This document shows positions 9,347 to 42,213 of a stretch of 64,000 bases of DNA, piece by piece. The first letter of the stretch is position 1. Each line of letters opens with the position of its first letter. The notes beneath the pieces were generated by a model, which was not told where the DNA came from, did not search any database, and saw only the letters and a list, made by a program, of their open reading frames with translations. The translations under genes were made by a program, and so were the position numbers. This DNA is from Flavobacteriales bacterium (GTDB taxonomy: Bacteria; Bacteroidota; Bacteroidia; CAIKAF01), in NCBI GenBank assembly GCA_025451235.1, contig JANWKT010000007.1:1-64000 (forward strand), given 5' to 3'.

Positions 9347-12300
9347 TTATTCCTTCACCAACTTATATACCCTCACTTTACCTTGCGGATCGGTAAGACT
9401 TATAAAATAAATTCCAGCGCAGAGATCCGCTGTTGAAATGCTATTGTTGGCAGCATTGAGCTTGAACGTTTTTATCCTCTGTCCCAAATTGTTGTAGAGG
9501 TTTACCACACAGGTTCCTTCCATTCCATCGATGGTCAATTGTGAGGTGAATGGGTTGGGGTAAATGTTCACCGTTATTTCATTACCCGGATCACCCATGC
9601 CTGCACAACCAAGTACAACTATGCTCACAACATCGGTATTGGAACAATTATTTGCATCGGTAAAAGAGTAAGAAATATTGTGATCACCTGTACCGGCCGT
9701 ATTTGGATCAAAGGAAGTTCCACTTACACCGGTGCCTGAATAGGTCCCTCCCAAAGGAGATCCACCAGATAGGGTTTGTAAACCATGATTGATACATATT
9801 GTATCCTCCCCTGGATACGTAAAGTTGACGGTGGGTGCAGCATGAACGGTCACCATTAAAGTTTGAGGAGAGGAATTTCCACAGGTATTGTTAGCTGTAA
9901 CGGTAATATTTCCGCTGGTTGCACTGGCGGATGTGTTGATGGAATTCGTAGTGGAACTTCCAGTCCAGAGTGATGGTAAGGTCCACGTATAAGAGGTTGC
10001 TCCCCCAACTGCTGAAATAGCATAGTTATTTGTAGTTCCCTGGCAAATGGTATCTGGGCCAGAAATGGTTCCCGGCGTATTTGGGATAGTGTTTACTGTT
10101 ATTGTTGCTGTGGAAGGTGTGGATGTACCGCATAGATTGCTAGCAGTAACGGAAATAGTACCTCCTGCAGGTCCGGGGGTTGCATAGATCGCATTGCCTG
10201 TTGGCGTTCCGGTCCAGCCTAATGGAAGATTCCAGGCATAAGAGGTGACCATGCTTCCCAAGGCAACATTATACCAATTGGTATCGCCTTCGCAAACAGG
10301 ATTGGGTCCAAAAATGATACCTGGATTTGACGGAATGGTCCATACATTGAGAATGGTCAATGAAGAAGGAGAAGAACTTCCACAGCTGTTGTTGGCTGTA
10401 ACCGTAATATTACCGGTGGAAGAACCTACTGTTGCCATGATTGAATCCGTAGTGGAGGATCCGCCCCATCCTGGAGGCAAGGTCCAAGTATAAGAAGTAG
10501 CGTTTGTATCAGAAACAATTGACCAGATAGTTGTACTGCCTAAACAAACCAATGTAGGCCCTGAAATGGTTCCAGGGTTTGCAGGAATGGTATTGACGGT
10601 TACCGCCAATGTAGAAGGAGAAGAAGTACCGCAGGCATTGCTGGCGGTTACCGTTATATTTCCACTTGTGGAACTGGCAGTTGTCGTAATTGAGTTAGTT
10701 GTTGAAGTTCCTGTCCAACCGGATGGAAGGGTCCAGGTGTAAGAGGTGGCTCCAATAACGGCAGGAATGCTATACGTATTTGAGCTGCCCGAGCAAACTG
10801 AAATGTTCCCGGTAATGGCTCCAATAGTTGTGAGCACAGGCATAACGGTGATAGTAAAACCAGAAGGGGAGGAGCTTCCACAGCTATTATTGGCAGTTAC
10901 CGTAATATTTCCACCTGGAGCAGCAGCTATGGTATTAATAGAACTGGTGGTAGAAGTTCCGCTCCAGCCGGGGGGTAAAGTCCAGGTATAAGAGGTAGCT
11001 CCAGGAACCGGAAACACCGAATAGGTATTGGAACTGCCCTCACAAACGGGAGTGGTACCAGAGATCATTCCAGGTGTTGCAGGGATTGTATTGACGGTGA
11101 CCGGTAAAACTGAAGCCGAGGAAGAACCACAGGCATTATTGGCGGTTACTGAAATGTTACCACCATTTGAACCTGCTATGGTAGCAATTGAATCAGCGGT
11201 TGAACTTCCAGCCCAACCTGCGGGTAATGTCCAGGTATAGGAGGTAGCACTACTAACGGGTGCAATGAAATATGTATTGGAACTTCCGGCACAAACGGCC
11301 ATATTGCCTGTAATAGGTCCGGGAGTTCCAGGAAGAGGATCCACTGTGATCGCTAGCACGGAAGGTGAAGAAATGCCGCATGAATTGTTGGCAGTTACTG
11401 TAATATTTCCACTGTTAGCACTGGCCGTAGTGTTGATGGAGTTTGTGAGGGAAGTTCCGCTCCATCCTGACGGTAATGTCCAGGTATAAGAGGTGGCTCC
11501 GCTTACCGCTGCGATTGAATAAGTATTTACACTAGACGGACAGATGGTCGTGCTTCCTGAAATGGTGCCAGGTGTGCCTGGAATTGTTTCAACGGTGATA
11601 TTTAAACTGGAAGCGCCAGAGGTACCACAGCTATTGGTTGCCGTTACGGAAATAGTTCCACCTGTAGAACCTGCCATTGTCGTGATTGAGTTAGTTGTTG
11701 AAGTTCCGCTCCATCCACCGGGCAATGTCCATGTATAAGAGGTGGCACCGGCAACGGGCGTAACGGAATAAATATGGGTGGTTCCATCACAAACGGTGTC
11801 ATTCCCAGAAATAATTCCCGGTGTAAAAGGTGTTGTATTTACTGTAACCGCCAATGTTTGAGGCGCAGAATACCCACAACCATTCACTGCACTTACCGAT
11901 ATATTTCCACTGGTTATACCTGATGTAGCAATTATACTATCTACCATAGAGGTTCCAGTCCATCCTGCGGGCAGTGTCCAAACGTAGTATAGAGTGTTGC
12001 TTACCGGAGCAATATCATAAGTAAGGGTGGTTCCGCTGCAAAATGAAGTAGCACCAGTTATTGCACCTGGTTGGGAGGGCGGGCTTGAAGTACACACTGC
12101 AAATTTTACAAGGAATTGATCAGAACTTCCGTTATAGGAATTGTCGTATCCATTGTATGAAATTCCATTGGAGCTTTCGGTATTACCAGCTAAATACATG
12201 TTGCCAGATAGATCAGAAATAACATCCTGAGCATAATCATTGCTTGTGCCGCCATAATAGGTTGCAGAAATCCGAACACCGCTGCTATTGAACTTGACGA

Positions 12301-25115: not shown

Positions 25116-25424
25116 TTGAAAACGATAGGACAGTTAATTCGGGAAAAAAGAGAATCGCAAGGGTTTGTTTTGAGGGAAATCGCTTCAGAACTTAATGTGG
25201 ATATTTCATTCTTAAGCAAGGTAGAGACTGGGGATAAGCGACCTACAAGAGAACAAGTAATTGCTTTAGCCAAATTTTTCGGGATAAATGAAAAAGAACT
25301 GCTGGTAGCATATTTAAGTGATAGATTGGTTTATGAGGTAAGGGAGGAAGAGCTAGCAATCGAGGCAATTAAAGCCGCAGAACAAAAAATTGAATACCTA
25401 AAAAAATCTAATACTATTTTTTAA
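25116..25424 (+). CDS. XRE-family HTH regulator, controller (C) protein-like, of the restriction-modification locus
   Basis: A 102-residue protein with an N-terminal XRE/Cro-type HTH (residues 5-60: IGQLIREKRESQGFVLREIA, then LNVDISFLSKVETGDKRPT) and a helical tail. The only plausible start is TTG at 25116; there is no later in-frame ATG. Its stop TAA overlaps the next gene's ATG by one base (TAATG), so the two are translationally coupled. Controller proteins of restriction systems time the appearance of the nuclease by binding operators in front of their own gene, and a 21-bp palindrome lies just upstream. The role is inferred from position. Confidence 0.82.
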   Translation: MKTIGQLIREKRESQGFVLREIASELNVDISFLSKVETGDKRPTREQVIALAKFFGINEKELLVAYLSDRLVYEVREEELAIEAIKAAEQKIEYLKKSNTIF

Positions 25425-28400
25425 TGGCGTTCTATGTCGCAAAAAATAAGACGGATGGCTTAGCTCAATTAAAGGAGCTTGTAACTGCATTTGAAAAAGA
25501 TATTAAATCTTTTACGTCACCATCCTATAATGAAACTCAATTAAGAACTGATTTTCTTGATGCTTTTCTAATGTGTTTTGGTTGGGATGTATACAATGAA
25601 TCCCATAAGAGCCAATTATTCAGAGATGTGCTCTTAGAGGAATCAATTGAAATCGATGAAGATTCCGCTAAAAAAAATCCAGATTACACTATACGTTTAA
25701 ACGGAATAAGAAAATTCTTTTTTGAAGCAAAAAAGCCTTCCGTAGATATTCTTACATCATCGAAAGCTGCATTTCAAACACGGCAATATGGATGGAGTGG
25801 GACCCTTGGAATTTCTATTTTGACCAATTTTGCCAATATAGTTGTTTATGACTGCAGATATAAACCTGAAACAAGCGAAGAAGCGCATGTGGCACGTGTA
25901 AGAACTTATAATTACACTCAATATGTAGATGCATTTGATGATTTATATGATTTAATTTCTTTTGATTCTGTTGCTAGTGGTAAATTAGATAGCGAGTTTT
26001 CTATTTATGACAGGATAGGTGATACTTTTGATAGCTATTTCCTTGAACAAATAGAAAAATGGAGAAAAAAACTTGCCTTGTCAGCGGTTCAGAGAAATGA
26101 GAATTTAAAAAATGAAGATATTAATTTCCTGGTTCAACGCTTACTCAATAGGATTGTCTTTTTAAGAATTTGTGAAGATAGGGCCATAGAAAAATACGAA
26201 ACACTTAAAGGAATCAAAAATTATGATGAACTTAAGGAGTTATTCAATCAATCTGATAATAGGTATAATTCTGGTTTATTTAATTTTATTGAAGATAAGC
26301 TTTCTTTAACCATTGAAATCGATACCGAAACTTTGATTTCAATTTTTAGCGAGTTATATTATCCTCATAGTCCTTACAATTTTGCAGTAGTTGATCCTTC
26401 AATCTTAAGCCAGATTTATGAAAAATTTCTAGGTAGTCAAGTTGTTTTAAGCGAAGGACGGCAACTTTCTATAGTAGAGGAACCCGAAGTAGCTGCTTCG
26501 AATGGAGTTGTGCCGACTCCAAAAATGATTGTTGAACAAATCGTAAAAGAAACATTGCTTCCACTTGTAGATTCCAAGTCTTTAAAACAACTGAAAGAAT
26601 TAAGAATTGCGGACATATGCTGTGGATCTGGAACATTTCTTATATCTGTGTATGATTTTCTTCTTAACTCAATAATAGAGGAATCTAAATCAAGTAAATC
26701 TTTAGATCCGGAACTTATTTATGAAATTTCTCAGAATACAATGGCTTTAACTTTAAAAGCCAAAAGAAGTATTCTGCAAAAAAATATATTCGGTGTTGAT
26801 ATAAATCCATATGCGACTGAGGTAACTCAGTTTAGTCTTCTTCTTAAATTGTTAGAAGGTGAAAATGCTACAACTGTCGATCATTTTATTAATCTAAACG
26901 GAGAAAAAGCTCTTCCTGATTTATCTCACAATATTAAGTGTGGAAACTCCTTAGTTGATAATAGTTTTTTTGAATTTGACCCCAAAGCAATTGATAACAA
27001 TGATTTATTGTTTAAGGTAAAACCGTTTAATTGGGGAAGTGAATATCCATTCTTACATGAAACTGGTGGTTTTGATGCTATTGTGGGAAATCCGCCATAT
27101 GTTAGAATTCAGAACTTAATCAAATATGCTCCACAAGAAGCTAAATATTATCAGAGTGATCTATCAGGGTTTCTGGTTGCTAAGAAAGAAACTTTTGATA
27201 AATACTATCTTTTTATTCAAAAGGCTGTTGGATTATTAAAAACCAATGGTTTTTTAGGATATGTCGTTCCACATAAATTTTTTATTGCAAAGGGTGGAAA
27301 AGCATTGCGTTACTTTATAAACACATCTTGCAGCATTTCAAGGATAATACATTTTGGGGTTACGCAGATTTTTCCTGATAAATCTACATATACAGCTATC
27401 CTGGTGCTTGTAAAAAATGAGAAAAATTCGTTTGAATTTAGAAGGATAAAGCAATTAACACCAGAAAATCTATCCTCTGATACAACATATCAGGTTTATG
27501 AGAAGGAGCGATTTAATCAGGATCCTTGGATTTTTTTATCGAAAGAAACTGAAGTCATTTTTAATAAGTTAAAATCTGGAAAGGTTAAGGAACTTCATAC
27601 AATAGCGGAGATATGTGTTGGCTTGCAAACAAGCAAGGACGAAGTATATATTTTTACACCTGAAGAGGAAACTGAGAATGCTTTTGTTTTTCTTGTAGAC
27701 GGAGTAAAACAAGAAATTGAAAAGAATATTTGTGTCCCATGTATTTATGATCTTTCATTAAGATTGTTTGATACTATTTTGCCAAATGCACAAATGATTT
27801 TCCCTTATACAATAGATGATGGAAAAGCGCAAGTTATAGGGGAGGAATACTTTAAAGCAAATTACCCTAATTGCTGGAGTTATCTTAACAAATATAAAGA
27901 TGTTCTATCGGCTCGTAGCATCAATGGTAGCAAAGACCCAAAATGGTATCAATTTGGCAGATCACAAAGTCTCACCAAATTTCACAATTCTCCAAAACTT
28001 ATTTGGAATGTTCTTTCAACAAAACCAACATATGTTTATGACGAACTAAACATACAATTTACTGGTGGAGGCAATGGCCCTTATTATTCGCTGATAAACA
28101 ATTCCGATTATTCAATTTTCTATATTATGGGTATTCTATCCCATCCTTTGTTTGAGAATATGGTAAAAGCTGGTGCTAGTGAATTTAGAGGAGCATATTA
28201 TTCTCATGGTAAACAATTTATTGAGAAGGTTCCGATCCGAGTTATAGATGAGGGAAATATTCCTGATGTGAACTTACATGATAAAATTGTAAAAACGGTG
28301 AAGGGATTAATTGAAACAAAACACCAGTACAATGGGGCTTATGGTGTTAGAATTGCACTTTTGCAAAGAAAATTAGATGTTCTTAATAGTACATTAATTG

Positions 28401-28495
28401 AAACAGTTAATGAGTTATATGGAATCTCTATGGATGAGTTTAACATCGTGATAAATGATGAAATGTTTACAAAAGAACTAATTATTGAAGATTAA
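25424..28495 (+). CDS. Type IIG (Eco57I-like) bifunctional restriction endonuclease/adenine methyltransferase
   Basis: A 1023-residue protein. The N-terminal domain has a PD-(D/E)xK nuclease signature: P86-D87, then 13 residues to E101-A-K103. The methyltransferase core has motif I around residues 396-404 (ADICCGSGTF) and the N6-adenine motif NPPY at 556-559. A TaqI/Eco57I-type target-recognition region fills about 600-1000. The length and partnership with a separate methyltransferase match the Eco57I system as I recall it (roughly 1000-residue RM plus roughly 540-residue M). It should cut foreign DNA and methylate one strand of an asymmetric site; the site cannot be read from sequence. A BREX PglX is less likely, because no BREX partner genes are present. 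Confidence 0.88.
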   Translation: MAFYVAKNKTDGLAQLKELVTAFEKDIKSFTSPSYNETQLRTDFLDAFLMCFGWDVYNESHKSQLFRDVLLEESIEIDEDSAKKNPDYTIRLNGIRKFFFEAKKPSVDILTSSKAAFQTRQYGWSGTLGISILTNFANIVVYDCRYKPETSEEAHVARVRTYNYTQYVDAFDDLYDLISFDSVASGKLDSEFSIYDRIGDTFDSYFLEQIEKWRKKLALSAVQRNENLKNEDINFLVQRLLNRIVFLRICEDRAIEKYETLKGIKNYDELKELFNQSDNRYNSGLFNFIEDKLSLTIEIDTETLISIFSELYYPHSPYNFAVVDPSILSQIYEKFLGSQVVLSEGRQLSIVEEPEVAASNGVVPTPKMIVEQIVKETLLPLVDSKSLKQLKELRIADICCGSGTFLISVYDFLLNSIIEESKSSKSLDPELIYEISQNTMALTLKAKRSILQKNIFGVDINPYATEVTQFSLLLKLLEGENATTVDHFINLNGEKALPDLSHNIKCGNSLVDNSFFEFDPKAIDNNDLLFKVKPFNWGSEYPFLHETGGFDAIVGNPPYVRIQNLIKYAPQEAKYYQSDLSGFLVAKKETFDKYYLFIQKAVGLLKTNGFLGYVVPHKFFIAKGGKALRYFINTSCSISRIIHFGVTQIFPDKSTYTAILVLVKNEKNSFEFRRIKQLTPENLSSDTTYQVYEKERFNQDPWIFLSKETEVIFNKLKSGKVKELHTIAEICVGLQTSKDEVYIFTPEEETENAFVFLVDGVKQEIEKNICVPCIYDLSLRLFDTILPNAQMIFPYTIDDGKAQVIGEEYFKANYPNCWSYLNKYKDVLSARSINGSKDPKWYQFGRSQSLTKFHNSPKLIWNVLSTKPTYVYDELNIQFTGGGNGPYYSLINNSDYSIFYIMGILSHPLFENMVKAGASEFRGAYYSHGKQFIEKVPIRVIDEGNIPDVNLHDKIVKTVKGLIETKHQYNGAYGVRIALLQRKLDVLNSTLIETVNELYGISMDEFNIVINDEMFTKELIIED

Positions 28496-28496
28496 T

Positions 28497-30152
28497 ATGA
28501 CTACAATAGTGAAAGAAAAATTGGACGCCCAAAAACTTCGTGGAGGATATTACACTCCTAAGGAAATTACTGATTTTATTTGTAAGTGGGCAATAACTAA
28601 ACAGACTCAAAGAGTTTTAGAGCCTAGTTGTGGTGATGGAAGTTTTGTTGAGGCTGCAATTAAGAGATTTCTGGAGCTAGGTGTTCCCCAAAATAAATTA
28701 TTCGGCTTATTAAAAGGTATTGAATTAATTAAAGAAGAAGCTGAAAAATCCAAGAAAAGAGCAGCGAATTATGGATTAAATTCAACAACCATTATAAATA
28801 ACGACTTTTTTAATTATTTGTCTAGTGCCAACGGAGATGGGCACTTCGACGTAGTAATTGGAAATCCACCATTTATAAGGTATCAGAATTTTCCTGAAGA
28901 TCACAGGGATAGGGCCTTCAAAATGATGAATGATATTGGCTTAAGTCCTAATAAACTTACAAATATTTGGGTACCATTTCTGGTATTGTCAGCTAACGCA
29001 CTTAATAGAAATGGAAAATTGGGCATGGTTATTCCAGCCGAATTATTCCAGGTTAAATATGCTGCTGAAACAAGAATTTTTTTATCGAAGTTCTTTTCTA
29101 GAATTACAATAGTATCCTTTAAAAAACTTGTATTTAAGGATATTCAACAGGAAGTGGTTTTATTGCTTTGTGAAAAAGATACAACTTCTAACTCGGGAAT
29201 AAGGGTAGTTGAGGTTAGCTCACTCGAAGAATTAAAAAATTTAAAAATCTCAGTTGTCCAAAAAAGTGAAGTAAAGACTTTAGAACATGATTCGGAAAAA
29301 TGGACAAAATATTTTTTGAATGAAGATGAAATTCAATTATTAAGAGGGATAAAATCTGATAAAAGAATTCATAGACTGGGAAAGATTGTTGATATAGATG
29401 TTGGCTTAGTGACAGGTCGAAATGATTTCTTTATGATGAGTGAAGAAACAGTCAAAAAATGGAAGTTGCAGCCTTACACAATAAAAGTTGTAGGTAAATC
29501 TAACCATCTAAAGGGCTTAAATTTTGGTGATAAGGATTTTCAAACTAATTCTTTGGACCAACAACATACATATATGTTTTTGCCACCTAATAAGGATTTC
29601 GATGATTTACCATTAGCCTGTCGACGGTATATAGATTATGGAGAGGCAGAAGGGTTTAATGGAGGATACAAAACTGGTATTCGAAAGCGCTGGTATATTA
29701 CACCTTCTTTATGGGTGCCTGAAGTTTTTGCATTAAGACAAGTTGGCGATTTCCCGAAGATTGTTGTTAATAATACTGAGGCCGCATCCACCGACACTAT
29801 CCATCGAGGGAAGTTATTAGGCAATCATAAGCCGCGGATTGTGGCTTTGTCTTTTCTAAATTCTCTTTCATTTGCATTTTCTGAAGTAATTGGTAGAAGC
29901 TACGGAGGAGGTGTTCTAACATTCGAGCCTACGGAAATAGAGGAGATTCCATTGCCAATACTATTAAATTCAAAGATCAATTTCGCAAAAATGGACACTC
30001 TAATTCGGAATCGACGTATTGAAGAGGTACTTGATATAATTGATGAAGAATTATTGATAAAGCAATTGAAATTTAAGAAAAAGGAAGTTTTAATGCTTCG
30101 AGGAATTTGGATTAAATTGTCGCAAAGGAGACAAGGACGAAAAAAGGGATAA
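28497..30152 (+). CDS. Eco57I/TaqI-class N6-adenine DNA methyltransferase
   Basis: A 551-residue protein from the ATG at 28497, one base after the upstream stop; a TTG at 28485 would add four residues. Residues 12-23 (QKLRGGYYTPKE) are the usual opening of TaqI-type methyltransferases. Motif I is LEPSCGDGSF at 41-50, and the catalytic motif IV is NPPF at 123-126. A target-recognition domain occupies the C-terminal half. As in Eco57I, this enzyme would protect host sites that the bifunctional partner modifies on only one strand. It is directly downstream of, and surely co-transcribed with, the restriction gene. The final residues are very basic (RRQGRKKG). Confidence 0.88.
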   Translation: MTTIVKEKLDAQKLRGGYYTPKEITDFICKWAITKQTQRVLEPSCGDGSFVEAAIKRFLELGVPQNKLFGLLKGIELIKEEAEKSKKRAANYGLNSTTIINNDFFNYLSSANGDGHFDVVIGNPPFIRYQNFPEDHRDRAFKMMNDIGLSPNKLTNIWVPFLVLSANALNRNGKLGMVIPAELFQVKYAAETRIFLSKFFSRITIVSFKKLVFKDIQQEVVLLLCEKDTTSNSGIRVVEVSSLEELKNLKISVVQKSEVKTLEHDSEKWTKYFLNEDEIQLLRGIKSDKRIHRLGKIVDIDVGLVTGRNDFFMMSEETVKKWKLQPYTIKVVGKSNHLKGLNFGDKDFQTNSLDQQHTYMFLPPNKDFDDLPLACRRYIDYGEAEGFNGGYKTGIRKRWYITPSLWVPEVFALRQVGDFPKIVVNNTEAASTDTIHRGKLLGNHKPRIVALSFLNSLSFAFSEVIGRSYGGGVLTFEPTEIEEIPLPILLNSKINFAKMDTLIRNRRIEEVLDIIDEELLIKQLKFKKKEVLMLRGIWIKLSQRRQGRKKG

Positions 30153-30515
30153 ATCATTTGGATTTGCCAACTGGCATAAACGTCCCTATATATTCAATTA
30201 GGCAACGGGTGACGGGCCTTGCGGGCTTACGTTAGTCTATTAGAATTAAAATGTTTCTTTATTGAATAAAGTAACTGTGAATGCTGCGGGTCGGCCAGCG
30301 CAAACGGCGGGCCAAGGTAGGCGGGAATTGGCTTTTAGGCCTGAGGGGGTGGAACCCGAAGGCCGTTAAAAAAGCCAAGGGCGGGCTGAAGCATCGTTTG
30401 CGCTTGATTTTTTTGTTTACTTTTTGCATCAAGGCAAAAAGTAAAACCCTCGCGGTAGCGAAAAAAATAGTATTTTTGATTCAAGCCCCAACTATAAGGA
30501 TATTAGTTATATAGA
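30153..30515. repeat. Intergenic palindromic repeat block between the methyltransferase and deaminase-fusion genes
   Basis: AGCGCAAACG (30297-30306) pairs with CGTTTGCGCT (30395-30404). TACTTTTTGC (30418-30427) pairs with GCAAAAAGTA (30434-30443). The block is more G/C-rich than the flanking genes. A 77-codon frame here is very basic and repeat-derived, not a gene. ctgcgggtcggccag at 30284-30298 recurs in the same orientation at 32572-32586. Confidence 0.7.
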
Positions 30516-32408
30516 ATGGCAAAGAAGATCATAGATACGAGGAAATTTATGCAAATGGCAATAGATGAGATGATGAAATCTATTGATGAGGTGCGTAATG
30601 ATGGAAAAGCTACTCCTAAAGTTGGTGCTGTGCTGGTTAGTGAAGATGGTGAACTAATTGGAACTGCATTTCGAGGAGAATGTAGAGAAGGAGATCATGC
30701 GGAGTATACATTATTAGATAGAAAGTTGCTTGATAAAAATGTAACTGGTTGTTATTTGTTTGCAACATTAGAACCTTGTGTTGGTAAAGCAAGACAGCCT
30801 CCTAAAATACCCTGTTCTAAAAGAGTTGTAAATGCTAGGATAAAAAAGGTATGGATTGGTATTGAAGACCCCGATCCAACAGTGTCTGGTCAGGGTAGGA
30901 AGTTTTTGGAAGGCTCAGGAGTGGAAGTTGAGATGTTTGACAAAGACTTACAGGTTATAATAGAGAGGGAGAATAAGGAGTTTCTAAAACAAGCTTTAAC
31001 TAGGGCACGTGAGGCAAAAGAAGGTAAGAAGACCATTGAGCTTACCACGGCAATTGAACGTCCTATAGAATCAGCTAATATTAATGAGTTTTCTACTGAT
31101 GCCTTAAATCATTATATTAATCGGGCAGATTTAAAAATGAAATCCGATAGTCCTGAGTTTCTTAGTTTATTAGAACAACAACAACTGATTAATTATGTTT
31201 CAAGTAATAATGATAGTGATAAAAAGGATCAACAATTAGAAGATATTAGAAGAAGTGATGTTAGACCACTTTTTACATGGTTGAATGGAAGACATCAAAA
31301 AAACGATGGGTATATTAATGATAACTTTGTGAATAAAGGTGATAATGCATTTATTGAAGGTTTTGAGGAATATGCAGATAATCCATCATACATTACGGTT
31401 AGAAAATCCTTAATTGAAAAAGGTAAGGAACTTAAAATTGAAGGTAGAGCTAAGGAGCAATTTAAGATTGGCTATCATATTGATGTTATTTATAAGGACA
31501 AAGATGGTCGTTCTTATAGACAAGAATTTAGGAGAATTGGTGATGAGAGGGAAATGATTGGTGAGCCTCGATTAGCTCAGAAAGACAATTCTCAAGCTAA
31601 TTATATTCCAACTGGTTTGGGAATTTTACTGTTTGGAAAAAATCCACGAGCCCGTTATCCCCAGGCTGTGCTCAAAGCTGAAGCACATTATGGAGATGGA
31701 GAACCGGAGGTTCATGATTTTTCAGGACCTTTAGTTTTAATACCTGATCAGGTGGAAGAATGGTTAAAAAAGGTTCTTGCTCTTAGAATATCAAGAGAGA
31801 GTTTTGCCAGAAATACTGAATATTCTTATCCTATTGAAATATTACGTGAAGCCATTGTTAATGCATTGGTGCATCGGGATTATGATATAGAAGGGGCTAA
31901 ATGTTACCTATCTATTTATGACGACAGAATTGTTGTTAAAAGTCCTGGATTACCAGTTAAGCCAATAAAATTCGAAGATTTTAAGAACTTCAAAGCACCA
32001 TCTCTTAGTCGTAATCCAAAGCTTATGGCAGTATTCAATGAAATGGGATATGTTGAAGAAAGGGGTATTGGAATGTCTGAAATGAAGGCTTTACCGGAAA
32101 ATTATGATTTATCTAGACCAGATATTACGTATCAAGAACCTTATATAAATATTGTTTTCCCAAGATCATCACATTTCCTAGAATCTGTTATCGGAGGTCC
32201 GAAATTTAAACAGTTAAACGAAGAGGAAAGAATAGGATTAGCGTTTATATATGATCAGAATCAAATAAGTAAATCTGATTATGCTGAACATTTTGATTTT
32301 AATGATAAAAAGGCTCAGCGTCATCTAGCTAAATTTGTTGAGCTGGAAATTGTGGATGTAATTGGTAGAGGTCCTGCAACGAAATACTCATTTATTAAAC
32401 CATCTTGA
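30516..32408 (+). CDS. RibD-like deaminase fused to a GHKL ATP-binding (RecG/COG2865-like) module
   Basis: A 630-residue fusion. Residues 5-145 form a CDA-fold zinc deaminase: HAE at 61-63 and PC at 87-88 with a second Cys100 supply the Zn ligands and catalytic Glu. [20 protein letters not shown] at 115-134 resembles RibD/dCMP-type pyrimidine deaminases. A helical linker (145-360) leads to a COG2865-like region ([14 protein letters not shown] at 371-384) with a HATPase_c_4 fold: N-box [12 protein letters not shown] (445-456), KSPG near 475-478 and RGIG at 516-519. The C-terminal 70 residues look like a winged helix. I infer an ATP-sensing regulated deaminase, perhaps defence-related; the substrate is unknown. 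Confidence 0.85.
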
Positions 32409-32502
32409 TCTGGACATAGATCAAGACATCATGTCCAGTTAAATAAGCTATTTCTAAGACCCTTTAAAAATCTGGACACAAATCAGGACATTATGTCCAG
32501 AT
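32409..32502 (+). repeat. Two tandem 31-bp hairpins after the deaminase-fusion gene
   Basis: ctggaca (32410-32416) pairs with tgtccag (32432-32438), and tctggaca (32471-32478) pairs with tgtccaga (32494-32501). Both have 15-nt loops of similar sequence. They lie 61 bp apart and begin directly at the stop codon. Each also contains a nested smaller palindrome (gacat-c-atgtc and ggacat-t-atgtcc). They could be transcription-termination or protein-binding sites. Confidence 0.7.
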
Positions 32503-32555
32503 AAACAAAATAGGCTTGAAAGTCAAGCATTTAAACCATCGGGGAGGGGGCTCCA

Positions 32556-32612
32556 AATAAATAAAACTTCTCTGCGGGTCGGCCAGAAAGAAAAATAAAT
32601 TGAATTCATTTA
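32556..32612 (-). repeat. Inverted copy of the island's left-border repeat
   Basis: Read on the minus strand, the segment gives aaatgaattcaatttattt and continues ttctttct, then 11 unrelated bases, then agagaagttttatttatt. The left border at 24838-24920 has the same two blocks in the same order, separated by about 33 bases. The 11-base spacer is part of the 15-mer ctgcgggtcggccag at 32572-32586. Confidence 0.7.
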
Positions 32613-33096: not shown

Positions 33097-33579
33097 TTAT
33101 GCCTTCATGGTCGCCAGAAATTCATCCTGCTTCTGCTGCATCTCTTCCGGTGTATAATCCCATACCCTGGTGGCGATGTCCCAGCAATGTCCGAAGGGAT
33201 CTTTTACTTTTCCCATTCGATCACCCCAAAAGGCATCCGACATTTCCATGATCATGGTTGCTCCGGCTTTCATGGCTCGGTCATACCATTGATCGGCATC
33301 ATCCACATAGAGCCATACGCCGGCCGTACACCATCTCCCCGGGCCTTGTTCATAGGATCCAGGTAAGGTATCATTGAGCATGAATAAGGTATCACCTATT
33401 TTCAATACTGCATGCCAGATCAACTTTCCATCGGGTGATAATACAGCGGGGCCTTGTAATTCAGCATTAAAGGCTTTTTTATAGAATTCAATGGCTTCTT
33501 TGCAGTTTCCATTGTAAAATAATTGAGTGGTCATTGTATGCATTCCTGCAGGTATCGGATTACTTGATTTTGTTGCCAT
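33097..33579 (-). CDS. VOC/glyoxalase-fold protein (PhnB-like)
   Basis: A 160-residue cytoplasmic protein of the vicinal oxygen chelate superfamily, in the PhnB/3-demethylubiquinone-methyltransferase-like branch. Typical landmarks are LFYNGNCKEAIEFYKKAFNAE near the start, GDTLFMLNDTLPG in the middle and FWGDRMGKVKDPFGHCWDIATR near residue 125. PhnB-like members often lack a demonstrated enzyme activity, so no reaction is assigned. A second, N-terminally truncated relative lies upstream on the same strand, evidently from a tandem duplication. Confidence 0.85.
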   Translation of the reverse strand: MATKSSNPIPAGMHTMTTQLFYNGNCKEAIEFYKKAFNAELQGPAVLSPDGKLIWHAVLKIGDTLFMLNDTLPGSYEQGPGRWCTAGVWLYVDDADQWYDRAMKAGATMIMEMSDAFWGDRMGKVKDPFGHCWDIATRVWDYTPEEMQQKQDEFLATMKA

Positions 33580-33738: not shown

Positions 33739-34161
33739 TTACCCTTCTTTCATGCTTGCCAGGAATTCTTCCTGTTTTTGCTGGATCTCTTCATTTGTAT
33801 AGTCCCATTGATGGGAAGCGATGTCCCAGCTATGACCAAACGGGTCTTTGAGTTTACCCATGCGATCTCCCCAGAAAGCATCCATGGGTGGCATGGCTGA
33901 TTCGGCCCCGGCTTTTACTGCCCTGTTGAACCAGGCGTCACAATCATCCACATATAACCATATCCCTACGGTGCTGCTTCCTTTGGGACCTGTTTCATAT
34001 CCACCGGGCATGGCATCTCCCATCATGATATGTGAATTGCCAATTTTTATCATGGCATGCCATACTGATTTACCATCAGGTGATTCTGCTATATTACCTA
34101 TGAGTTCTGCATTGAATGCTTTTTTGTAGTATTCAATTGCTTCGCGGCAATTGCCGTAATG
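33739..34161 (-). pseudogene. 5'-truncated VOC/PhnB-like gene
   Basis: From the first ATG (34053) the frame encodes 104 residues, but homology to the neighbouring 160-residue VOC protein continues upstream without a start codon: YGNCREAIEYYKKAFNAEL matches the neighbour's NGNCKEAIEFYKKAFNAEL. This stops at an in-frame TAA at 34162-34164. About 22 N-terminal codons, including the start, are therefore missing and replaced by unrelated sequence that leads into a dispersed repeat. A short product from 34053 would lack the first bab unit, so this is most likely a broken tandem duplicate. Confidence 0.75.
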
Positions 34162-37113: not shown

Positions 37114-37201
37114 TACATGGTTTTAGCGAGTTTTCAGCAAATCAACCTATATTTATTCCATCGCAGTTCACCCATGTTGAATGAATAACTAACTATTGCC
37201 T

Positions 37202-39580
37202 ATGCGCAAACATACTTCTACCCTATTTTGCTTCATCTTATTGGTTTTATTAGGAGTTTTCTCCTCCCCCTCCCTCCGAGCTCAATACTTATATCCTTAC
37301 GAAACCAAGGTGGACAGCATTAATATCGTACATTACGACATCCACCTGGATGTAACTGACTTCACCAGTTTCCAGTTATATGCCCATACCAGGGTCCACT
37401 TCAAGCCTTTGGTAAATGGGATATCCAACATCGACCTTGACCTGATCGGACTTGGGATTGACAGCATTAAAGACCCACTGGGAAATAATTTAACGAGTAC
37501 GCCCTATACCCTCGGACATCGGATCAACCTGGCCAGCGCTTATAACCTGGGAGATTCCACCTGGGTGGAAGTGTATTACCATGGGACCCCGGTAAGTGAT
37601 CCCAACTTCGGAGGTTTTTACTATACCTCGCAATTCGCCTATGCGGTTGGGATAGATATTGACGATGTGCCCCATAACTTCGGCAAGGCATGGTTCCCCT
37701 GTTTCGATAATTTTGTAGAAAAAAGCACCTTCGACTTCTATTTGACTATTCCAACCACGCATATGAGTGCCGCCAGTGGAAGCCTTGTAAGCACAGTGAT
37801 GAATCCAGATACGACCAAAACAGACCATTGGCACCTTGCCTATCCCAACTCTACTTTTGTTACCTCCATTTGTGTAGCTAACTATACCAAGATCACTCAA
37901 TATTTTACCAATTATCAGGGCGATAGCATCCCCGTTTATTACGTCGCCAGGCCTTCGGATACCACTGCCATGCTGGGTTCGTTTGTAAACCTGGAAGCGG
38001 CCTTTGATATCCTGGAGGCCAGTTATGGTCCCTATCCTTACGACCATATCGGATATACCCTGGTCCCTTTGGCAGGCGGAGCCATGGAACATACCATGAA
38101 TATTGCATATCCGATTTCCCTTACCAACGGCGCCACCACCTATCAACATGTGATCTACCATGAATTGGCTCACCATTGGTTCAGCAATTGTGTAACCCCA
38201 CGAACGGCAGAAGATATCTGGATGAAAGAAGGCTTTGCGGTATATGGAGAGCATCTCTTCGATGAGAATTTCTATGGGGTTCCCCAATACGATGCTGCAA
38301 TCCGGAATACGCATAAACAACTCTTATGGACCTGCCATTATGATGATAGTGGTTATTGGCCATTATCAGGGATCCCTCAGCAATATGTATATGGAACCGC
38401 GACTTATTCAAAGAGTGCCGATATACTGCATACCATGAGGCATTATTTGGGAGATTCGGTCTTCTTTGCTACCGTAAAAGAGTTAGTTATTCAGGATGCT
38501 TTTACCTCTATTGATGCTGCTGAAATGCGGGATGATATGAGTGCTATTTGTGGGATCAACCTGGATGATTTCTTCGATACATGGATCTTACAAGGTGGAT
38601 GGCCCCATGTTTCCATCGATTCAATAGAAGCTGTTCCTTCAGGTCTGAATTATAACGTAACGGTTTATCTCAAGCAAAAACTGGTAGGAAGGACCAACTA
38701 CTCGAATGATATTCCCATTACTTTGAGTCTGAGAGATGATAACTGGAACCTGTTTGAACAGAAAGTTACGTCGACCGGAGCCAACAACAGTGTAACGGTA
38801 ACAGTCCCCTTCTTACCCAATGTTGCCTTCCTGAACGGGGATGAGGAAGTATCGCATGCAGTTACCGCCAGCTATGGGGTGATTACCAATACCGGCACGA
38901 ATAATTTCTATCATGGAAATATGAATTTAACGGTACAAACCATTACAGATTCGGTGTATATGGTGATCGAACATAACTGGGCCGCGCCGGATCCCATGAT
39001 CGCCTGGTGGAAAGGGTATACCATTTCACCTCAACGATATTGGAGAGTGGATGGAATATGGGATGCAGGATTCAGCACCAATGCCAGCATTTATTATAAC
39101 GGAAGACCTTCAGGAAGCAACTCCAGGTTGGATAATTATCTGATCACCACTACTACCAGTGAGGATAGCCTCATCTTGTTATACAGACCGGATAGATCTG
39201 TCGACTGGGATGAATTTACTTCGTATACCGTTAATATTGGAAATCCGGCAGATAAATTAGGGACCATTGCCATTACCAACCTTCAAAAAGGAGAGTATAC
39301 TTTAGCATTGAAAGGCATGAGCATTGGTATTGAAGAACCTGAAATAGTTCAATCAAGGGTGTACCCTAACCCATCCGACGGATTGTTCAATGTGGAATGT
39401 TTGCAGCCCTATGATCTGTTGCTGGTGACCAATGTATTGGGAGAGCAAGTATTGCAGCATGCGGGCTACCAGACCACCACGCCACTCGATGGCAGTGAAT
39501 GGGCACCTGGTCTATATGTGGTATCAGGTTATGCAGGAGGGCAAAGGGTGTTCAGCCAAAAGGTGTTGGTTCGAAAATAA
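37202..39580 (+). CDS. M1-family zinc metallopeptidase with T9SS sorting domain, copy 1
   Basis: A 792-residue secreted protein; I chose the ATG at 37202 because it opens the signal peptide MRKHTSTLFCFILLVLLG (a TTG lies two codons earlier). The N-terminal half is an aminopeptidase N-like beta domain. The catalytic domain has HELAH at 320-324 and Glu343 exactly 18 residues later, the HExxH-x18-E zinc site. The exopeptidase motif is GAMEH (293-297) rather than GAMEN. A beta-rich C-terminal part and a VYPNPSDGLFNVE T9SS domain follow. It probably cleaves peptides outside the cell. The next gene is its tandem paralogue. Confidence 0.9.
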   Translation: MRKHTSTLFCFILLVLLGVFSSPSLRAQYLYPYETKVDSINIVHYDIHLDVTDFTSFQLYAHTRVHFKPLVNGISNIDLDLIGLGIDSIKDPLGNNLTSTPYTLGHRINLASAYNLGDSTWVEVYYHGTPVSDPNFGGFYYTSQFAYAVGIDIDDVPHNFGKAWFPCFDNFVEKSTFDFYLTIPTTHMSAASGSLVSTVMNPDTTKTDHWHLAYPNSTFVTSICVANYTKITQYFTNYQGDSIPVYYVARPSDTTAMLGSFVNLEAAFDILEASYGPYPYDHIGYTLVPLAGGAMEHTMNIAYPISLTNGATTYQHVIYHELAHHWFSNCVTPRTAEDIWMKEGFAVYGEHLFDENFYGVPQYDAAIRNTHKQLLWTCHYDDSGYWPLSGIPQQYVYGTATYSKSADILHTMRHYLGDSVFFATVKELVIQDAFTSIDAAEMRDDMSAICGINLDDFFDTWILQGGWPHVSIDSIEAVPSGLNYNVTVYLKQKLVGRTNYSNDIPITLSLRDDNWNLFEQKVTSTGANNSVTVTVPFLPNVAFLNGDEEVSHAVTASYGVITNTGTNNFYHGNMNLTVQTITDSVYMVIEHNWAAPDPMIAWWKGYTISPQRYWRVDGIWDAGFSTNASIYYNGRPSGSNSRLDNYLITTTTSEDSLILLYRPDRSVDWDEFTSYTVNIGNPADKLGTIAITNLQKGEYTLALKGMSIGIEEPEIVQSRVYPNPSDGLFNVECLQPYDLLLVTNVLGEQVLQHAGYQTTTPLDGSEWAPGLYVVSGYAGGQRVFSQKVLVRK

Positions 39581-39831: not shown

Positions 39832-42213
39832 ATGTATTCAACCACTCAGTCCTCCCCTTTGTTTACCAGGCTTCTTGTTTTTACGTTCATGCTCACCTGC
39901 ATCGGCTCTTCTTTTGGACAAACGGTGTTCCCTCATGATACCCGCAGCGATAGCATCGATATTGATCATTATAATATTTACCTGGATGTGACCGATTTTA
40001 CCAGTTTTACCTTATCAGGAAGAACGGATGTATATTTTAAACCCCTGGTAAATGGAATTTCAAAAATAGACCTGGATCTGATTGGATTGACCGTTGATAG
40101 TATTAAAGATGCAGGCGGGAATTTATTAACGCATACCAACCAGGGATTGGGTTTCAGAACAAACCTGAGCTCCACTTATAACATCGGGGATTCAACCTGG
40201 ATAGAAGTTTATTACCACGGAAATCCAGTCACAGATCCTACTTTTGGAGGGTTTTATTTTAACAGTACCTATGCCTTTAGCATTGGAATTTCGCTGGATG
40301 CCATCCCGCATAATTATGGAAAAACCTGGTTCCCCTGCTTCGATGATTTTATTACCCGGAGCACTTATGACCTATATGTGACCACCTTGCCTGCACACAA
40401 TGCTGCATGTGGAGGGGTGTTCCAATCCACCGTTATCAATCCAGATCTTACGGAAACCCATCATTGGAAAGTAAACCAGACCATCCCTGCTTACCTGGTA
40501 TCGGCTGCGGTTGCCAATTACGTTTTTGTGGTAGATGGTTTTACCAATTACCTCAACGATACCATTCCGATTTGGCTGGCCGCCTTACCGGGTGATACTA
40601 CAGATATGAAGAATTCTTTCATCAACCTGGAAGCGGCTTTTGATATTTATGAAAATAAATGGGGAGCTTATCGCTGGGACAGGGTTGGATATGTACTTGA
40701 ATCGATGAACTCCGGAGCCATGGAGCATGCCATGAACATTGCATTCCCTGCATTGGCTGCTGATGGTGGCTTAGGATGGCAATCGGTAATGGCCCATGAA
40801 CTTTCGCATCATTGGTGGGGCGACCTGGTTACCTGCCGAACCGCCGAAGATATGTGGATCAATGAAGGAAGTGCTGTTTACAGCGAATATGTATTTACAG
40901 AAGATTTTTACGGAAGACCTGCTTATGAAGCCAGTGTAAGAACTGCCCATAAAGACCTGATCAGGATATGTCATGTAGATGATGGAGGTTATTGGGCATT
41001 ATCAGGAGTTCCCTTGAACCATACCTATGGATCTACCACTTATACAAAAGGGGCTGATATGATCCATACCATGCGGGCCTATTTAGGGGATTCACTTTTC
41101 TTTAATGGATTACAACAATTGCTGGAGGATAATAAATTCTCAGATATAGATGCCATTGAATATCGGGATGAATTAAGCACTATTACAGGTGTAAATCTCA
41201 CCAATTACTTTGCCGACTGGATCTTCCAGGGTGGATGGCCCCATATTTCCATCGATTCGATAGATGCAGTACCTGCAGGTATCAACTATGATGTGACCAT
41301 TTATTTGAAACAAAAACTGGTGGGAAGGACTAACTATTCTACGCAAGTGCCTGTGATGCTGAGTTTAAGAGATAATAACTGGAATACATTTGAGCAAACC
41401 ATTTATGCTTCCGGATCAAACAATTCGGTGGTAGTTACTGTACCCTTCCTACCTACCGTAGCTTACCTGAACCGGGACGAACTCATTTCCCATGCAGTTA
41501 CAGCAGCTTATGCTAAACCCACCACGCCTACCTCGGTGAATATGTCACATGCGAATTTCACCTTACAGGTACAAGCAGTGAACGATTCAGCATATGTAGT
41601 TGTGGAACACCATTGGGCCGCTCCAGACCCTGTATTGGATTGGACGAAAGGATATACCATTAGTACCCAAAGATTCTGGAGGGTGGATGGAATATGGCCA
41701 AATGGTTTCAATACCAATGCCACCATTCAGTATAACGGACGTGTTACAGGAACCAATTCTCACCTGGACCATTTATTGATCACAGGGAACGAGGATAGCC
41801 TTATCTTGCTTTATAGACCCAATAGAGCCACGGATTGGACAGAATTCACCACTTATACCAAGATCATGGGCAGCTCAACAGATAAAATTGGAACCATGAG
41901 CATTACCAACCTCCAAAAAGGGGAATATACCTTTGCTTTAAAAGGGCAAACCATTGGGATCAACGAGCCTATGAATGCATCGAAGATCAAGGTATATCCT
42001 AATCCTACACAAGGAGTGGTGAATGTGGAAAGCCCTGTGGCATTCGATTATATTGTTATTACCAATATGCAAGGGCAACTGATCCTTCAGAAATGGGTGT
42101 CGAATACGGTGGCACAGATCGATACCGGTGGATGGTCAAAAGGGACCTATTTTATGACAGGTTATACCAATGGACAACGGGTGTTCAATAAGAAATTCGT
42201 GGTGCAGCAATAA
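39832..42213 (+). CDS. M1-family zinc metallopeptidase with T9SS sorting domain, copy 2
   Basis: A 793-residue secreted paralogue of the preceding gene, collinear over its whole length (shared blocks such as DVTDFTSF, FKPLVNGIS, LKQKLVGRTNYS, WRVDGIW). The zinc site is HELSH at 322-326 with Glu345 in the x18 position, and the exopeptidase motif is again GAMEH (295-299). It ends in VYPNPTQGVVNVE plus a T9SS type A domain. Retention of the zinc ligands in both copies suggests both are active, perhaps with different specificities. A repeat element separates the two genes. Confidence 0.9.
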   Translation: MYSTTQSSPLFTRLLVFTFMLTCIGSSFGQTVFPHDTRSDSIDIDHYNIYLDVTDFTSFTLSGRTDVYFKPLVNGISKIDLDLIGLTVDSIKDAGGNLLTHTNQGLGFRTNLSSTYNIGDSTWIEVYYHGNPVTDPTFGGFYFNSTYAFSIGISLDAIPHNYGKTWFPCFDDFITRSTYDLYVTTLPAHNAACGGVFQSTVINPDLTETHHWKVNQTIPAYLVSAAVANYVFVVDGFTNYLNDTIPIWLAALPGDTTDMKNSFINLEAAFDIYENKWGAYRWDRVGYVLESMNSGAMEHAMNIAFPALAADGGLGWQSVMAHELSHHWWGDLVTCRTAEDMWINEGSAVYSEYVFTEDFYGRPAYEASVRTAHKDLIRICHVDDGGYWALSGVPLNHTYGSTTYTKGADMIHTMRAYLGDSLFFNGLQQLLEDNKFSDIDAIEYRDELSTITGVNLTNYFADWIFQGGWPHISIDSIDAVPAGINYDVTIYLKQKLVGRTNYSTQVPVMLSLRDNNWNTFEQTIYASGSNNSVVVTVPFLPTVAYLNRDELISHAVTAAYAKPTTPTSVNMSHANFTLQVQAVNDSAYVVVEHHWAAPDPVLDWTKGYTISTQRFWRVDGIWPNGFNTNATIQYNGRVTGTNSHLDHLLITGNEDSLILLYRPNRATDWTEFTTYTKIMGSSTDKIGTMSITNLQKGEYTFALKGQTIGINEPMNASKIKVYPNPTQGVVNVESPVAFDYIVITNMQGQLILQKWVSNTVAQIDTGGWSKGTYFMTGYTNGQRVFNKKFVVQQ

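Follow-up and report, generated by a model that had tools for sequence, protein, structure and literature searches.

A RibD-like deaminase on a GHKL–winged-helix chassis, with an apparent DNA address tag behind its gene

The locus and the gene family

The window, which is the whole stretch of 64,000 nucleotides analysed here from a Flavobacteriales bacterium, carries a restriction-modification (R-M) locus on its plus strand. A helix-turn-helix regulator gene (25116..25424; Pfam HTH_19/HTH_3), probably encoding the control protein of the locus, overlaps by one base the gene for a type IIG R-M enzyme (25424..28495). PADLOC recognises this enzyme over its whole length as REase_MTase_IIG (E = 0), and Pfam finds Eco57I, HSDR_N and TaqI_C in it. 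An Eco57I-type adenine methyltransferase comes next (28485..30152; M_Eco57I_C and N6_Mtase; PADLOC MTase_II, E 4e-199). Behind it, on the same strand, lies a gene of composite architecture that runs from ATG to TGA at 30516..32408 and encodes 630 aa. Elsewhere in the window, two glyoxalase-like ORFs are adjacent on the minus strand (33097-33579 and 33739-34053), and 37196-39580 and 39832-42213 encode tandem, very similar secreted M1-peptidase-like proteins of ~793 aa.

A first-pass annotation had described the 630-aa frame as a RibD-like deaminase with an intact CDA zinc site, fused to an ATPase module beside an R-M locus, and each of these elements is borne out. The deaminase domain occupies residues 1-170 (30516..31025), with a Pfam match to dCMP_cyt_deam_1 at residues 9-115 (E 2.8e-12, above the gathering score), the zinc-site residues H61, E63, C88 and C100 (HAE at 61-63) and the RibD-like segment already described. 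The GHKL/HATPase_c_4 module spans residues 362-556 (31599..32183), where Pfam HATPase_c_4 covers residues 460-547 (E 5.5e-17; 62 bits against a gathering score of 26), and it contains an N-box (E445/N449, HRDY) and RGIG (516-519). Absent from the annotation were a C-terminal winged helix (wHTH) at residues 566-628 (32211..32399), an extra domain at residues ~226-356 (31191..31583), and a DNA array immediately behind the gene.

An AlphaFold model built from 71 family members (mean pLDDT 83.5) mostly exceeds pLDDT 90 in the deaminase, the GHKL module and the C-terminal winged helix, while its confidence is low at residues 246-319, within the extra domain. The wHTH is delimited by the secondary structure of the model, which places its recognition helix at residues 597-609 and its wing at 617-622. 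Residues 5-164, zinc site included, fit B. subtilis RibG (BsRibG; Z ~21), and residues 176-629, GHKL and wHTH jointly, match the COG2865 structure 3lmm (Z 22.3). No AlbA_2/Schlafen domain matched at E 0.1, the N-terminus being dCMP_cyt_deam_1 in Pfam. PADLOC-DB 2.0.0 gave no full-length match to a defence model, and its partial pAgo-associated matches fell over the GHKL part only. Domain matches and model together indicate that a nucleotide-type deaminase, a predicted ATPase switch and a predicted DNA-reading domain are united in one widespread, uncharacterised bacterial protein.

Relatives (at least 80 in the genome collection) occur in Bacteroidota, Proteobacteria, Planctomycetota, Spirochaetota, Clostridia, Candidatus lineages and the archaeon Methanolobus. 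The loci studied are those of the best 80 of at least 371 relatives, many of them on MAG contigs. As judged from the alignment, conservation in 71 members excludes a chance origin of the ORF. Nearly all members are about 490-505 aa long; the window protein has ~130 extra residues between deaminase and GHKL, a gap in all other full-length members, and because of this insert the window copy is an atypical member. A segment related to the insert was found in L011 only, after the deaminase. The L011 protein (L011:10004-10975, 323 aa) consists of a deaminase and an insert-type domain without GHKL-wHTH, and its gene adjoins McrBC-like and N6-methylase genes. Beyond L011, the insert domain had no match in 295 class genomes, and sequence searches of Pfam and the PDB gave no significant match to it. 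In Pedobacter sp. MC2016-15, the family gene (L086:9986-12754) is broken by an IS3-like element with two ORFs at 10554-11671 on the minus strand. Carriage on plasmids or phages was rejected, as the plasmid and phage collections held no full-length relatives.

The association with restriction that the first-pass annotation drew for the window holds up among homologues. Across 50 host genomes, 13 loci have an N6-methylase in their fetched flanks (genes called by a simple ORF script), against 0.77 expected from the N6-methylase gene number in each genome (Poisson p 3e-12), an enrichment whose factor is approximate, since the observed count comes from a local profile that admits matches a little more readily than the genome-wide Pfam search behind the expected one. 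The family gene often sits between hsdS and hsdR in operons of the form hsdM-hsdS-X-hsdR (X here being the family gene), with overlapping frames (L029 -4, L060 -4, L058 -11, L074 -1, L082 -1). Further neighbours include type IIG enzymes, a type III-like methylase/nuclease, McrBC, GmrSD, OLD-TOPRIM, Piwi/pAgo and a DprA-like protein; a recognisable defence neighbour is missing at many family loci. We consider an R-M- or defence-linked role for the deaminase-GHKL-wHTH protein likely. At L035, L041, L062, L063, L065 and L087, a small DprA/LOG-like gene (~150 aa) stands one to three genes 3′ of the array, and at L065 the 5′ part of this gene is duplicated upstream of the cassette.

The 3′ array and the winged helix

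The arrays behind the stop codons of family genes share one design, in which an 8-10 bp half-site, X, recurs mostly 12 bp further along and is then followed, across a short loop, by an inverted X. The window copy has two units only, both on the plus strand. Unit 1 (32407..32440; CTGGACA-tagat-CAAGACA-tca-TGTCCAG) overlaps the TGA stop with its first half-site, and unit 2 (32469..32503; AATCTGGACA-ca-AATCAGGACA-tta-TGTCCAGATA) comes 62 bp after it. Units repeat every 61-63 bp at many loci, and of 63 intervals between units about 40 measure 60-64 bp. A unit stands within 200 bp downstream of 73 of 79 family genes and of 15 of 400 control genes (62 of 79 and 2 of 400 at a higher score), and a stricter scan found units behind most of 75 loci, whereas 670 control segments, each 500 bp long, contained only 2. 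X1 and inverted X are usually near-perfect partners, and it is the middle copy that is degenerate (mean identities to the consensus 9.7, 9.3 and 8.8 of 10). A fourth half-site completing a symmetrical unit was rejected, its expected place not being conserved. Methanolobus (L055, L056) has longer arrays, tandem repeats of a ~62-bp period whose conservation extends to the spacers.

The sequence of X varies by locus (for example TCTGGACA, TCGCGACA, TCTCGCCA, CATAGACA, ATCCGGACA and CCCGCCA). In 61 loci, we scanned about 490 protein columns for covariation with the DNA positions of X. The best column for DNA position 5 is residue 601 (z 16.5, against 8.1 for the runner-up) and that for position 8 is residue 602 (z 15.2), while positions 2-3 pair best with residue 622 and its wing neighbours (z 18.3 and 13.1). 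In the AlphaFold model, residues 601 and 602 lie on the recognition helix and 617-622 in the wing. Particular helices go with particular bases, KAQR with TGGAC, RAER with TCGCC, RARR with CGGAC and RASR with TAGAC; Ser622 occurs with C at position 2 in 18 of 18 cases, and Thr622 with T in 33 of 36.

Ancestry was controlled for with 30 disjoint nearest-relative pairs, picked on residues outside the wHTH. In this sister-pair test, 601/position 5 (p 7e-5), 622/position 3 (p 8e-5) and 602/position 8 (p 0.005) each ranked first of all columns. A pairing of position 7 with residue 598 (mutual information z 14.3) was lost in the same test (p 0.89) and was rejected. The columns that covary with position 4 are mostly those of the GHKL module, apparently a trace of shared ancestry. 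We conclude that the predicted wHTH reads the array as double-stranded DNA, and the covariation indicates that the protein almost certainly binds its own 3′ array.

A gene's own half-sites lie within 0-220 bp downstream of it; they are not enriched upstream, and in the coding region they do not exceed chance. A promoter-bound autorepressor was rejected on the lack of own half-sites upstream. Elsewhere in the window genome there is no copy of the window array with up to 3 mismatches allowed, and this confinement to its own locus led us to reject a genome-wide regulon. The protein could still be mainly a transcriptional regulator, with the array as an operator or RNA-polymerase roadblock that would govern how far transcription continues into the following gene, which is hsdR in type I operons, and the deaminase sensing or consuming a small molecule. 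The array does lie between the family gene and hsdR in those operons, and base-specific reading by a wHTH is a typical trait of regulators. However, 17 of 57 downstream genes are convergent, which is not below background, arrays are kept where no gene follows, the gene's own promoter has no site, and the catalytic residues are invariant. The array as an operator of the downstream gene was rejected, co-directional downstream genes not being above background. We regard a primarily regulatory protein as a doubtful reading.

Exchange, movement and the nature of the array

The wHTH and the array differ together between close relatives. In the pairs L026/L072, L041/L046, L077/L083, L016/L017 and L038/L066, the wHTH is 27-39% identical and the rest of the protein 81-90%, and X is different; for L026/L072 the identity is 90% outside the wHTH and 31% within it. 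Behind L026, its own TATCGCGACA unit is followed by an L072-like TACTTGGACA unit, and L016 carries an L017-like AGCATAGACA unit. Serial units of differing specificity stand behind one gene at L012, L016, L019, L020, L026, L041 and L077. Units of at least two specificities occur at no fewer than 7 of 75 loci (controls, 2 units in 670 segments), and they apparently record earlier wHTH/array versions. Because wHTH and array are adjacent, a single recombination event can swap both, and this adjacency would offer a simple reason for the 3′ position of the array. Rapid change of specificity together with a strict self-match would further imply that the array sequence is arbitrary and that only the self-match matters, as might be expected of a cis-acting device that avoids cross-talk with related cassettes.

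Direct repeats of ~40 to >200 bp bracket gene and array at about ten loci (for example L014, L026, L043, L044, L065 and L083), an arrangement that 0 of 290 mismatched controls show. In the window, a 15-bp direct repeat, CTGCGGGTCGGCCAG, lies on the plus strand both upstream of gene and array (30284..30298) and downstream of the array (32572..32586), and a 14-mer inside it has exactly two occurrences in the 4.28-Mb genome, counting those with up to 1 mismatch. Since direct repeats bracket both, gene and array appear to travel as one. They could on this account be the core of a small mobile element with the array as its recombination end, as the bracketing repeats at about ten loci, the 15-bp repeat around the window copy, otherwise absent from the genome, and the scattered phylogenetic distribution would allow. 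Yet the protein has no recombinase domain, the repeats vary widely in length, several of them coincide with the 5′ part of the gene that follows, as fits a passive cassette integrated by homologous recombination, and the 5′ side has no array. We regard a mobile element as improbable.

It is also conceivable that the array acts as RNA, with tandem hairpins in the 3′ UTR serving as a guide, a substrate for the protein, or an antitoxin of the kind that RNA repeat arrays provide in type III toxin-antitoxin systems. Hairpins do form within the units, the fold of the window stretch is better than that of shuffled sequences (z -3.25), and the array is strictly 3′, in the transcribed direction. Against this, arm mismatches have no G-U preference (49 G-U versus 55 A-C, p 0.62), mirrored units exist, the 61-63 bp phasing and the helix-plus-wing base code fit double-stranded DNA, and the array has no Rfam match. 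An RNA hairpin was set aside on the missing G-U bias and the lack of an Rfam match, and we judge a role for the array as RNA very improbable.

The deaminase, its chassis and a possible role

Residues H61, A62, E63, C88 and C100 are invariant in the 71 members, which span several phyla of bacteria and a single archaeal genus, as are R53, E55 and K97, and N-box residues E445 and N449 are conserved in at least 90%. The nearest NCBIfam model is RibD (TIGR00326), at 69 bits against a curated cut-off of 156. RibD substrate residues are Asn23, His42 and His76, with the motif PCxHxG(R/K)TPPC (PMC3668577, PMC8256712). In the deaminase family this motif with its His is not kept, the pocket Asn is replaced by T/S, and the pocket His is replaced by E55 or lost. 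Because the zinc-site residues are invariant and the RibD-specific substrate residues are lost, the deaminase is probably active, yet on a substrate other than a riboflavin intermediate. RibD and RibG have fold and zinc site in common with the window protein (Z 19-21, about 28-32% identity), but the latter has lost the substrate motif, has other partner domains and another gene neighbourhood, and carries GHKL-wHTH in place of the C-terminal reductase domain. The annotation's view that this is not riboflavin synthesis, and that the RibD reductase half has been replaced, agrees with these results; a riboflavin enzyme was rejected on the TIGR00326 score and the lost substrate residues. An ordinary pyrimidine or riboflavin deaminase carrying an accessory domain, although RibD/RibG are the closest solved structures, is hardly credible given the lost motif and conserved substrate His/Asn, the missing reductase, the lack of rib genes nearby, the separate RibD-like ORF in the window genome (G000:C24:66570-66953, in a 336-aa frame with one in-frame TAG reported) and the linkage of the family to R-M.

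The annotation was right to set riboflavin aside and to see a restriction link, but it overlooked the COG2865 Schlafen-type chassis and the array-reading wHTH. COG2865/Schlafen (AlbA_2)-HATPase_c_4-wHTH proteins have the GHKL-wHTH chassis in common with the deaminase family (3lmm, Z 22.3) and are likewise found in R-M/BREX loci (PMC12839542). The deaminase family differs from them in that a CDA deaminase stands in for the Schlafen/AlbA_2 RNase, and in its X-X-inverted X array with 61-63 bp spacing. The description of Schlafen RNase-minimal histidine kinase-wHTH proteins in PMC12839542 is that of suicidal effectors that back up BREX. TrlG of Photorhabdus, an AlbA_2-HATPase_c_4 protein, limits growth when the temperature is high, and mutations obtained by selection lie in both of its domains (PMC7554251).

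We inspected the 3′ ends of AlbA_2 (Schlafen)-HATPase_c_4 genes (L089-L108, L111-L139). Short repeats come right after the stop in 14 of the 34 genes fetched, compared with 11% of controls. For example, L093, L096 and L102 carry three to four copies of ATTGCACA, which come after helices of the same type, L117 carries GGGTAGTAAA twice, and L095 carries AACGTGCCA and an inverted copy. This suggests that self-arrays may belong to the whole GHKL-wHTH chassis. Because of the Schlafen-type BREX effectors, TrlG and the repeats behind AlbA_2-type genes, we take the deaminase, by analogy, to be an exchanged effector on a switch common to both kinds of protein. The open-access literature, in which absence is weak evidence, yielded no paper that treats the fusion of a RibD-like deaminase with GHKL or arrays at the 3′ side of COG2865 genes, no experiments on members of the deaminase-GHKL-wHTH family, and no earlier description of a self-cognate DNA array behind the gene for the GHKL-wHTH chassis.

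Among nucleotide-modifying deaminase defence systems, dCTP deaminases are also grouped. RADAR and Cad1 use adenosine deaminases with AAA+ or CARF partners (PMC9994260, PMC11645235), and they resemble the present family in that a deaminase used, or proposed, against phage is coupled to an ATPase or sensor; no such PADLOC model matches the window protein. The R-M-linked anticodon nucleases PrrC and RloC offer a likeness of another kind, a second effector held under control beside or inside an R-M locus (PMC3874168). They are unrelated proteins, however, with an RNase rather than a deaminase, and their control runs via R-M proteins or DNA breaks, not a self-encoded DNA array.

The protein appears to be an enzyme with a link to defence that is anchored to an address tag of its own. 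Whether the gene and its 3′ array make up a self-contained cassette, in which an array-docked deaminase effector is released as a back-up to R-M, is in our judgement evenly balanced. Its parts would be a zinc deaminase effector, a predicted GHKL ATP-binding switch and a wHTH on the X/X/inverted-X units behind the gene. The protein would dock on its own array as a multimer, with three half-sites per unit and a phase of about six helical turns from one unit to the next, and docking would hold the deaminase inactive or local. Loss of docking might be the trigger, through degradation of host DNA or loss of the locus (phage attack, plasmid or island loss); alternatively, the GHKL switch may change state. 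The freed deaminase could then act on nucleotides or nucleic acid and halt growth, and this arrest would be the back-up for the accompanying R-M systems. A release-type effector mechanism is put forward tentatively. More speculative, and on the unlikely side, is a one-gene self-addressed immune or addiction cassette whose enzyme is checked in cis by its own array, DNA being the antitoxin. Architecture, catalytic conservation, array, specificity covariation, wHTH/array exchange and R-M linkage are drawn from sequence; an enzyme that is docked and then released or switched is the most economical model, for which we infer the inhibition, the trigger, the substrate and the outcome.

A deaminase effector is now joined to a chassis already implicated in defence through the bacterial Schlafens. 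The wHTH and the array behind its own gene shift the question from the substrate of the deaminase to what docking on the array controls, and the role of the GHKL-wHTH half becomes directly testable through the array. The putative recognition code can be read from sequence alone, and with the block-wise exchange of wHTH and array it would provide a natural set of orthogonal DNA-binding modules. If the self-addressed cassette is real, wHTH and array are swapped as a block and each cassette recognises only itself; deaminase and Schlafen effectors would then use one GHKL-wHTH chassis, with loss of host DNA as the trigger.
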